From Dermatobacter hominis (lineage in GTDB: Bacteria; Actinomycetota; Acidimicrobiia; Acidimicrobiales; Microtrichaceae), in assembly GCF_020715685.1 (NCBI RefSeq), contig NZ_CP085840.1, forward strand, positions 1,054,001 to 1,118,000: DNA of 64,000 nucleotides, given 5' to 3'. Positions 5,090 to 10,659 of the stretch are shown here, one piece after another. The position numbers and the translations under genes are program-made. Below the pieces are notes generated by a model. The model made no database searches, was not told the DNA's origin, and saw nothing but the letters and a program-made list of their open reading frames with translations. How positions within the stretch are numbered: position 1 is the first letter of the stretch; every line of letters starts with the position of its first letter.

Positions 5090-6030
5090 CCGGGCTCTCC
5101 CGCACCCTGGGACTCGTCGGCGACCGCCCGGCCGAGGAGATCCTCCGCCGGCTCACCCTCGACGTGAACCGGAAGCTCGACGGCATGCTGCACGGCGACT
5201 TCCTGGGCCTCGTCCCTGGCCGTGGCACCGAGCCGGGCGAGACGCGCGCCTACGAGCCGGGCGACGACGTCCGCCGCATCGACTGGAACGTGACCGCCCG
5301 GATGCAGGACCCCTACATCCGCGAGACGATCGCCGACCGCGAGCTCGAGGCGTGGCTGGTCGTCGACCGCTCGGCGCGGCTCGACTTCGGCACCGCCGAC
5401 TGCGAGAAGCGCGACCTCGTGCTCGCGGCGGCCGCCGGCGTGGGCCTGCTCACGGGGCGCGGCGGCAACCGGGTCGGCGCGCTGATCGTGCGCGGCGACG
5501 AGCTCGCCACCGTGCCGCCGCGGCACGGCCGGAGGCACCTGCTCGCGATCCTCGAGCGGATCATGGGCACGCCCCGCGGCGACGGCTCCGGTCGCGCCGA
5601 CCTCGTCGGCGCCCTGAAGCGGGCCGGCGCGATCGCCCCCCGGCGTGGCCTGGTCGTCGTCCTGTCCGACTTCCTCGAGGACCCCGAGCAGTGGCGGACC
5701 GCACTCGGCACCGTGGCGTTGCGGCACCAGGTGCTGTGCATCGAGGTCGTCGACCCCCGGGAGCTCGAGCTCCCGCCCGTCGGCCTGGTGCAGTTCAGCG
5801 ACCCCGCGACCGGGGGCACGCGCGAGGTCAACACGAACGACCCGGGGACCCGGGCGCGGTACGCCGAGGCGGCCGGTCGCCAGCGGGCGACCATCGCGTC
5901 GGCCATCCGGGGCGCCGGCGCCGACCACCTGCAGCTGCGCACCGACGGCGACTGGGTGCTCGACCTGGCCCGCTACGTGTCCCGGCGCCGCCGCCGGGCC
6001 GAGCTGGCCGCGACCACGGCCCCGCGGTGA
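5086..6030 (+). CDS. DUF58 domain protein (MoxR operon partner)
   Basis: Protein of 314 aa with the DUF58 signature YEPGDDVRRIDWNVTAR near residues 55-72, followed by a von-Willebrand-like fold (WLVVDRSARLDFG and VVVLSDFLEDPEQW, with acidic residues at MIDAS-like positions). It starts with GTG overlapping the moxR stop (GTGA), so translation is coupled. Members act with MoxR ATPases and VWA membrane proteins, but their biochemical activity is not settled. No membrane segment is visible, so it is probably cytoplasmic or peripherally attached. Confidence 0.9.
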   Translation: MTGLSRTLGLVGDRPAEEILRRLTLDVNRKLDGMLHGDFLGLVPGRGTEPGETRAYEPGDDVRRIDWNVTARMQDPYIRETIADRELEAWLVVDRSARLDFGTADCEKRDLVLAAAAGVGLLTGRGGNRVGALIVRGDELATVPPRHGRRHLLAILERIMGTPRGDGSGRADLVGALKRAGAIAPRRGLVVVLSDFLEDPEQWRTALGTVALRHQVLCIEVVDPRELELPPVGLVQFSDPATGGTREVNTNDPGTRARYAEAAGRQRATIASAIRGAGADHLQLRTDGDWVLDLARYVSRRRRRAELAATTAPR

Positions 6031-6116
6031 CCGGGCCGATGCCCGCACGTGCGGGCGACGACAACGACGACGACGGCGAAGAGGCAGAGCGAGTCGAGAT
6101 GGGCGAGTCCAGATGA
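6027..6116 (+). CDS. Possible 29-aa acidic peptide bridging DUF58 and VWA genes
   Basis: Short frame beginning with GTG that overlaps the DUF58 stop (GTGA) and ending in a TGA that overlaps the ATG of the VWA gene (ATGA). It would encode a peptide whose middle is almost entirely Asp/Glu/Asn (DDNDDDGEEAE). The perfect double overlap is what a translated coupling cistron would look like. It could equally be a spacer in which the frame is accidental. No family is recognised. Confidence 0.3.
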   Translation: MTGPMPARAGDDNDDDGEEAERVEMGESR

Positions 6117-7084
6117 GCGAGTGGTTCCTCCAACCCGAGCGGCTGTGGCTGCTCCTGGTCGTCGTCGGCCTGGCCGCGCTCTACGTCGGCCTCCAGTTCA
6201 CGAAGCCCCGCTACGCCGTGCGCTTCTCCAACCTGGCCCTGCTGGACTCGGTCGCCCCGAAGCGGCCCGGGTGGCGCCGCCACGTGGTCGCCGGGGCGTT
6301 CATCGTCGCCGCGGGCGTGCTGGTCGCCGCGTTCGCCCAGCCGGTGATGACCGAGAAGGTGCCGTCGGAGCGCTCGACGATCGTCCTCGCCATCGACACC
6401 TCGCTGTCGATGGCGGCGACCGACGTGTCGCCCAACCGCATCGAGGCGGCCCAGGCGGCGGCCAAGGAGTTCATCGACAAGCTCCCCGACCAGCTCAACG
6501 TCGGGCTGATCAGCTTCGCCGGCAGCGCCCAGCTGCTCGTGCCCCCGACCCAGGACCACGCCAAGGTCAACCAGGCGATCGACGGCCTCGAGCTCGACAA
6601 GTCGACCGCCATCGGCGACGCCACCAAGCTGGCGGTCCAGGTCATCGAGGACCAGGCCCGCGGCACCGACGGCAAGAAGGTCGACGGGGCGGTCGTGCTC
6701 ATGTCGGACGGCGAGACGACGGTCGGCCTGCCCACCGCGGACGCCATCCCGATCGCGAAGGACGCCGGCGTCGCCGTGTCGACGATCGCCTACGGCACCC
6801 AGGACGGCGAGATCACCGTCGACACCGACGGCGACGGCGTCGGCCAGCGCACCCGGGTGCCGGTGAACGTGGAGGAGCTCCGCGGCCTCGCCGAGGGCAC
6901 CGGTGGCACGGCCTACACCGCCGAGTCGGCGCAGGACCTGCGCTCGGTGTACTCCGAGCTCGGCTCCACGATCGGCTACGACGAGCAGCAGCAGGACGTG
7001 ACCTACCGGTTCGTCGGGCTGGGACTCGTGCTGCTGCTGGTCGCCGCGGGCTTCTCGCTCCGCTGGTTCAGCCGCCTGCCCTGA
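6113..7084 (+). CDS. VWA-domain membrane protein (BatA/BatB-like)
   Basis: Membrane protein of 323 aa. Two N-terminal helices (LWLLLVVVGLAALYVGL and HVVAGAFIVAAGVLVAAFA) precede a von Willebrand A domain, and a C-terminal helix (FVGLGLVLLLVAAGF) closes the protein. The metal-ion site is intact: the DxSxS motif is DTSLS, and VVLMSDGETT gives the later acidic ligand. This is the BatA-like architecture found with MoxR and DUF58 proteins. The start overlaps the upstream 29-codon frame (ATGA). It is convergent with smc. Confidence 0.9.
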   Translation: MSEWFLQPERLWLLLVVVGLAALYVGLQFTKPRYAVRFSNLALLDSVAPKRPGWRRHVVAGAFIVAAGVLVAAFAQPVMTEKVPSERSTIVLAIDTSLSMAATDVSPNRIEAAQAAAKEFIDKLPDQLNVGLISFAGSAQLLVPPTQDHAKVNQAIDGLELDKSTAIGDATKLAVQVIEDQARGTDGKKVDGAVVLMSDGETTVGLPTADAIPIAKDAGVAVSTIAYGTQDGEITVDTDGDGVGQRTRVPVNVEELRGLAEGTGGTAYTAESAQDLRSVYSELGSTIGYDEQQQDVTYRFVGLGLVLLLVAAGFSLRWFSRLP

Positions 7085-7160
7085 GCCGGCCGGACCCGAC
7101 CTTCCTCTGGGCCCGGGACACGCTGCGCCCGACCCGGGCGCGAGCCCGACCCGAGCTCGC

Positions 7161-10100
7161 TCAGTCGAGGACGGTGGCGGCCCGCTCCGACAGGACCTTC
7201 GACGAGCCCGCCGGCTCCATCGTGACGCCGTAGAGCACGTCCGCGGCCTCCATCGTGCGCTTTCTGGTGGCTGACGACGATGAGCTGCGCGGCGTCGCGG
7301 AACTCGGCGATCAGGTCCAGGAAGCGGTGGAGGTTCACGTCGTCGAGCGCGGCCTCGACCTCGTCCATCACGTAGAAGGGCGAGGGCCGCGAGCGGAACA
7401 CGGCGAACAGGTACGCGAGGGCCGTCAGCGAGCGCTCGCCGCCCGACAGCAGCGACAGCTTGCGGACGTTCTTGCCCGACGGCCGGGCCTCGAGCTCGAT
7501 GCCGGTCTCGAGGAGGTTGTCGGGGTCCGTCAGCCGGAGCCGGCCCTGGCCGCCCGGGAACAGCGTCTCGAACAGTGTCGTGAAGTTCGTGCTGACGTCG
7601 GCGAAGGCGGCCGAGAACACGTTGACGATCTCCTCGTCGACCGCCTTGATGACCTTCGAGAGCTCCCGGCGGGTCTGGCGGATGTCCTCGAGCTGACCCT
7701 CGAGGAACGTGTGGCGCTCCGACAGCTCCTCGTACTCCTGGAGGGCGAGCGGGTTGATCGGTCCCATGAGGCGGAGCTCGCGCTCCAGCTCGCGCACGCG
7801 TGCCGGCGCGGACACGCCGTCGGGCAGCAGCGGGCACTCGGCCGCCATCGCCACGTCCGGTTCGGTGTCGAGGTCGTGGCGCAGCTGCTCGGTGGCGGCG
7901 TCGAGGCGCATCCGGGCCTCGGCATCGGAGATCTCGGCCTTCTGGAGCCGGGCGCGAGCCTCCTCGAGCGAGCGCTCCGCGGCGCTGCGCTCCTGGCGGA
8001 GGCCGTCGAGGAGGTTGGTCACCTCCCGGGTCGCCTCGGACTGGCGCCGGCGCTCCTCCCGGAGCGACTCGAGCGTGGGCTCGACCACCTGCAGGCGATC
8101 GGCGACGAACGCCTGCAGCCGCTCGGTCGCGGCGACCCGCGCCTCGAGCAGCACGCGGCGGTCGGCGGCGGCGGCGACCTCGGCCTGGTTGCGGGCCAGT
8201 CGCTCGCCGATCTGCTCGAGCCGTGAGCCCACGTAGCGGCGGCGCTCGTCCAGCGCAGCGACCCGCACCTCGAGATCGGTCCGACGGGCCTGGACGTCGC
8301 CGGCCCGGGCGTCGAGCTGCTCCCGCGCCTGGGCCATGCGCCGGGCCTGCTCGCCCAGCTCGGCCTCGGCCGCCTCGAGGTTCGGCAGCTGCTCGGCGAG
8401 CTCGGCGACCCGCACCTCCTCGCGGGCGAGGCGGTCGACGAGCTCGGTCAGGTGGGCGCCGAGCGCCTCGAGCTCTCCGGTGGCCTCCTCGGCGTCGCGG
8501 TCGAGGCGCTCGACCTCGTCGGCCAGCCGCCGGCGGTCGGCCGCCGCCTGGTCGCGGCCCCGGTGCGCCTCCTGCTCGACCCGGCGGGCCTCGGCGACCG
8601 TCGACCGGGCCGCCTCGACCTCGCGGCGGGCGCGGTCGCGGGCCTCGGCGGTCTGCTCGGCCCGGTGCCTCGCCTCGTCCAGCGCCGCGCCGGTGGCGCC
8701 GGCGCTGGCGGCCCGGAGCCGCCACCCCGCCGATCCGAAGCGGTCACCGCGGCGGGTCACGACCACCGCGGTCGGCGAGGAGAGCGATGCCGCGACCGCG
8801 GCGTCGAGGTCGCCGTCGACGACCACGGCGCCGGCGAGCAGCGCATCGAGCACCGCCTCGATCCCGCCGGCGGCGGGACCGGCACCGGCGGCGGCCCGCA
8901 CGTGGCGGCGCACCGGGTCACCGATCGACGCCGGCGCGGCGGCGGGGGAACCGCCACCGACGGAGCCGAGCGCGAGCACCGCGCCGCGGTGGTCGCCGGC
9001 CTCGAGCGCGACGAGCGCCCGACGTCCGGCGTCGACGTCGGCCACGACGACCGCGCCGAGCGCCTCGCCGGCGGCGGCCTCGAAGGCCTCCTCCCAGCCG
9101 GCGTCGACGTCGACGAGGTCGAGCAGCGTGCCGAGGACGCCGTCGAGCCCGGCCAGGCGCTCGGCGCCGGCGCGCTGGCGGGCTTCGTCGAGCGCCATCG
9201 AGAGGGCCTCGACCCGCGCGGCCCAGGCCGACGCGTCGGCCTCGGCGTCGGTCGCCGCCGTCTCGGCGCGCGCCAGGGCCTCCTCGGCCTGCACGCGACC
9301 GGACGCGGACTCCTCCAGGGCGCGCTCGTGGCCCGGCGCCGCGTGCTCGGCCTCGTCGACCGCCGCCGCGGTCGCGTCGCGCTCGGCCCGCAGCCGCTCG
9401 ACCCGCTCGCCGAGCGAGGTGCGCCGCAGGGCGAGGCGCTCCCGGTCGGCCCCCGTCCGCTCGATCGCGGAGCGCAGGGCCGCCAGCTCGCCCCGGACGG
9501 CCGACGCCTCGCCGGACGGGGCGGCCACGCCCTCGCCCCACTCGTCGGCGAAGGCCTGCCGGCGGCCGGCCAGGTCGGCCTCGAGCTCGTCGAGCGTCGA
9601 GAGCTCGTCGGTCACCGCCACGCCGTCGCGCTCGATCTGCTCGGCCTCGGTCGACAGCTCGTGGTGCTCGGCCTCGAGGGAGGCGACGACGGCGGCGTCG
9701 ACCGACGCACCGAGCTCGCGGTCGAGGTTGCGGCGCCGCTCGGCCAGCAGGGCCAACTGGCCTCGGCCCTTCTCGGCCAGCTTCTCGTAGCGGACGAGCA
9801 CGTCGCCCAGGTCCCGGCCGCCGAGCGCCGACAGCTGCGCCTCGGCGGCGACGATGCGGGCGTCGAGGTCCGACAGGACGGCCCGCAGCCGCTGGTCCTC
9901 GCCGCGCAGCTCGGCCTGCGAGCGCGACGACTCCTCGAGCTGGCTGCGGAGCCGCAGCAGCTCACGACCGGCGAGGTGGATGCGCAGGGCGCCGAGCTCC
10001 GCGACGAGGTCGCCGTGGCGCCGGGCTGCGTCGGCCTGGCGCTCGAGCGGGCGGAGCTGGCGTCGCACCTCGCGCAGGAGGTCGTTGATGCGCGTGAGGT

Positions 10101-10659
10101 TGGCCTCGGTGGCCTGCAGCCGGCGCTCGGCGCGCTCCTTGCGGCGCCGGTACTTCAGGACGCCAGCCGCCTCCTCGATGATCAACCGCCGCTCCTCGGG
10201 GCGGGCGTTGAGGACGCCGTCGATGTTGCCCTGCGAGATGATCACGTGCTGCTGGCGGCCGACGCCGCTGTCGGACAGCAGCTCCTGGATGTCGAGCAGG
10301 CGGCAGGGCACGCCGTTGATCGCGTACTCGCTGTCGCCGGAGCGGAACAGCAGGCGGGTGATCGTCACCTCGGTGAACTCGATGGGCAGCAGCCCCGCCG
10401 AGTTGTCGATCGTGAGCGAGACCTCGGCCCGGCCCAGCTGCGGCAGCTTCGACGTGCCGGCGAAGATGACGTCGTCCATCTTCTGGGAGCGGACGGCGGA
10501 CGGGGCCTGGGCGCCGAGCACCCACCCGATCGCGTCGACCACGTTCGACTTGCCGGAGCCGTTCGGCCCCACCACCACCGTCACGCCGGGTTCCAGCGTC
10601 AGCGTCGCCGCCTCCGCGAAGGACTTGAACCCCTTGATCTGCAGCGTCTTGAGGAACAC
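7161..10659 (-). CDS. smc: Chromosome segregation ATPase SMC, frameshifted near the 3' end
   Basis: Condensin ATPase that folds and segregates the chromosome. The N-terminal head has Walker A GPNGSGKSNVVDAIGWVLG. Two long coiled coils flank a hinge at roughly residues 480-660. The C-terminal head has the signature LSGGERSLTALAYLFA, Walker B YVMDEVEAALDD and the switch histidine in VVSHQK. Directly after VVSHQK the frame breaks. Three T's at 7261-7263 (plus strand) where two are expected shift translation into an unrelated tail ending at 7003. Removing one base restores RTMEAADVLYGVTME and a stop at 7161-7163, the expected SMC ending. GTG start with AGGAGA just upstream. Last gene of the rnc-fpg-smc unit. 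A sequencing error is likely. Confidence 0.93.

Follow-up and report, generated by a model that had tools for sequence, protein, structure and literature searches.

The window analyzed here, a stretch of 64,000 bases, comes from Dermatobacter hominis Kera-3T (GCA_020715685.1), a member of the family Iamiaceae from human skin (PMC12263773). The genome consists of one contig of 4,661,060 bases, with a completeness of 95.78 and a contamination of 0.13. The smc gene lies on the minus strand of the window, and its main reading frame (7264-10659) extends over 1,132 codons from a GTG start at 10659 to the Q of an SHQ motif. The SMC signature motif, Walker B, the D-loop, and the SHQK switch share one frame (LLSGGERSLTALAYLFAVFRSRPSPFYVMDEVEAALDDVN..VVSHQ), and the product matches SMC_N (Pfam) and the SMC heads in the PDB. 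Within smc, the frame hidden Markov model (HMM) found no further frame switches.

At the SHQK switch, the minus strand reads CAC CAG AAA GCG CAC GAT GG, in which the AAA occupies 7263-7261 (TTT on the plus strand) and one A is surplus. The conserved SMC ending, RTMEAADVLYGVTM..., is missing from the main smc frame and appears in the deposited sequence only in the +1 frame. Translation of the minus strand with one A omitted yields KRTMEAADVLYGVTMEPAGSSKVLSERAATVLD followed by a stop at 7161 (7161-7262, minus strand), which confirms the proposal in the preliminary description that TTT at 7261-7263 be read as TT. The frame as deposited continues instead to 7003 through a tail of 86 residues, counted from the K to the end (7003-7263, minus strand), close to the 85 or so residues first estimated. 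The resulting open reading frame (ORF) of 1,218 amino acids (7003-10659) overlaps the end of the plus-strand VWA ORF (5645-7084) by 82 nt, whereas the restored stop leaves a gap of 76 bases to this convergent gene. The site had also been called a homopolymer, a term that hardly suits a run of AAA where AA is expected.

Frame of the SMC C terminus

Several lines of evidence agree that a one-base insertion shifts the last 32 codons of smc, as the preliminary description held: the PDB heads, the related loci, and a model of coding statistics. Compared with bacterial SMC proteins (PF02463 SMC_N; 3zgx, 5xg3, 5h66), the deposited sequence leaves the SMC frame at the K of SHQK, with 32 codons still to come; once one A is skipped, the head aligns to the C-terminal end as theirs do. 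The restored tail reaches the end of these and other solved SMC heads, with residues 15-233 of the 239-residue query aligned to 3zgx. The third-position GC content (GC3) of the restored tail is 1.00, versus 0.48 for the deposited frame, and the model log-likelihoods (-106.4 and -151.4, respectively) favor the restored frame by about 45 log units. Over 34 codons including the stop, the restored tail and that of the same-genus genome G001 have 21 identical codons, 9 synonymous differences, and 4 nonsynonymous ones, and the base differences number 2, 2, and 11 at codon positions 1, 2, and 3. Because GC3 and coding score are normal and the differences from G001 are mainly synonymous, selection has acted on the restored frame, at least until recently.

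The relatives point the same way. All 107 related loci that span the junction, the same-genus one included, are one base shorter and carry a single ungapped SMC frame with the consensus (V/I)(S/T)HQ(K/R)RTM. Of these loci, 27 come from family genomes and 80 from the GTDB 220 collection, and because the two sets share some organisms, the number of independent genomes is below 107. Apart from the window's own loci (L001 and L003), only L023 and L031 fail to span the junction, their matches being cut off at contig ends. The extra A is thus absent from every relative examined across the junction. Comparison with close relatives had been suggested at the outset as a check, with a shared long tail as the contrary outcome, and a long alternative tail was found in none of the 107.

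Is the 86-residue tail nonetheless a genuine, functional C terminus peculiar to this lineage and overlapping the VWA gene? The frame is indeed open for all 86 codons, but its low GC3 and its likelihood, far below that of the restored frame, mark its codon statistics as atypical; its sequence is shared by no relative, and adopting it would cost the protein the conserved end of the ATPase head that is seen in the PDB structures. We consider a functional tail exceedingly improbable. The real smc would encode an ordinary full-length SMC protein that ends at 7161. A second intact smc copy is absent from the genome, as is any further junction lacking the extra base.

One-base insertions in other genes

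A six-frame codon HMM was used to segment 1.6 Mb of the genome. It sets the smc switch at exactly contig position 1061261 and, apart from an Ala-Pro linker artifact, yields five intragenic switches in total, the one in smc and one in each of four other genes. At each of the five, the frames rejoin after the omission of exactly one base that is a copy of its neighbor. Before duplication the run is a single base or a pair: AA has become AAA at two sites, C has become CC at two others, and CC has become CCC at the fifth. A XerC/D-type tyrosine recombinase gene on the minus strand has an extra C at C1:1042229 (GTCGAC[C]GCCGAC); matches to this gene occur in 33 of 33 family genomes, and in nearly all, G001 included, the frame is unbroken. 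It is situated about 19 kb from smc, about 12 kb to the left of the window. The other three genes are on the plus strand: a DapB_N/DAP_DH_C-type dehydrogenase gene with an extra A at C1:795273 (GTG[A]AACGTC), whose relatives mostly have a continuous frame; a membrane protein gene without a Pfam match, with one extra C at C1:1342840; and a histidine kinase gene, also with one extra C, at C1:1671600.

Other candidate switches were set aside as scan artifacts. The pair at 1093853 and 1093983 reflects an Ala-Pro linker, after which the frame resumes as before; that at 1237410 reflects two tRNAs; and those at 1103115, 1038040, and 1050470 were judged artifactual when the frame HMM did not confirm them.

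In simulations, the detection rate of the scan was about 42% for insertions and 20% for deletions. Corrected for the former figure, the real number of such lesions is perhaps about 12 per 1.6 Mb. The lack of deletions is weak evidence because only 20% of them would be detected; with insertions recovered about twice as readily, the fact that all five lesions are insertions is not used to prove a sequencing error. A control scan of genome G006 gave zero candidates at a sensitivity of only 5 to 11% there.

Recoding, mutation, and consensus error

Could the ribosome make a normal SMC protein from the shifted gene? In programmed +1 frameshifting at this site, the Lys-tRNA would slip from AAA to AAG, and in AAA-G the +1 codon is indeed one with which tRNA-Lys(UUU) could pair anew. 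The AAA codon is very rare (14 of 237,319 codons), and the frameshift at C1:795273 is also at AAA. The likeness to prfB-type frameshifting, in which a known protein likewise requires that one base be skipped, ends there: the smc site is not conserved, the extra base occurs in no relative among the 107 loci, and no stop codon follows. Classical +1 frameshift sites, such as that of prfB, do have a stop codon following. Nothing in the sequence context appears programmed, C or CC is the site in three of the five cases, and the frame is kept at about a dozen further in-frame AAA codons. The coincidence of two AAA sites is moreover built in, since an A added to AA necessarily makes AAA; two of five lesions at AA/TT has a chance of 0.007 to 0.017 under uniform duplication, with too few events to build on. 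We therefore regard programmed frameshifting in smc as very improbable, and there is equally little to recommend the wider idea that rare AAA is a +1 slippage site through which both the smc and dehydrogenase products are made. If recoding were true, it would define a new type of +1 site; nothing supports it. Two related ideas were also discarded. AAA runs are not a general frameshift signal, as the frame shifts at just 2 of some 15 in-frame AAA codons, and a missing tRNA-Lys(UUU) cannot account for slippage, because the genome has this tRNA.

A more serious alternative is a real and very recent one-base insertion in the strain, which would replace the final 32 residues of SMC and be tolerated or selected in culture. 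The extra base is, after all, present in the sequence as deposited. The premise of the preliminary description that smc is essential is also unsafe, and life without smc is possible: the actinobacterium Corynebacterium glutamicum tolerates smc deletion without an apparent growth phenotype (PMC11898615). However, a mutation would have to be very recent, as the tail keeps normal codon statistics and mostly synonymous divergence. ScpA and ScpB, the partners of SMC, are both present in the genome with open, intact frames, and one tolerated change in smc would leave the like lesions in the XerC/D-type gene and three others unexplained. Since smc and the XerC/D-type gene are both chromosome-segregation genes, 19 kb apart, it is less likely that both are freshly broken in a growing type strain than that both carry consensus errors. 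Replication slippage is expected to concentrate in long G/C runs. It is disfavored here because none of the five lesions is in a G/C run of at least 4, though the coding sequence has thousands of such runs. On balance, we think a real mutation unlikely, yet far more credible than recoding.

The most probable explanation for the extra A in smc is an insertion error of one base left uncorrected in the consensus of this single assembly. One-base duplications dispersed over unrelated genes are more readily explained by consensus errors than by gene decay or recoding, and we infer that all five extra bases have a technical origin, in sequencing or consensus calling and not in the living strain. For nanopore assemblies, published work describes erroneous insertions that follow A or T, frequently where the run has two bases (PMC12007338). 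The lesions resemble such long-read indel errors in that they are single-base insertions in short runs, two of the five after A, and in that several unrelated genes are affected and none of the relatives is. They differ in their low density (5 in 1.6 Mb, or about 12 when corrected). Two points weigh against a consensus error: five lesions in 1.6 Mb is a number that real frameshifted genes could also yield, and the evidence comes from the consensus of one assembly of the species. Of the three causes first offered, then, sequencing or assembly error is the likeliest, a real strain-specific mutation is a less likely alternative, and +1 recoding is unsupported.

The smc lesion is thus a routine question of annotation whose chief use is as a warning about assembly quality. 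Given that scattered one-base insertions break core genes, gene-loss calls and odd C termini in this assembly should be checked against reads.

A further observation concerns base composition in the 1.6 Mb, window included. With a GC3 of 97%, genes very seldom contain sense-strand A runs of at least 3, 68 such runs occurring in 1.42 Mb of coding sequence, and the TTA codon is entirely unused in the first 800 kb (237,319 codons); the high GC3 accounts for both.
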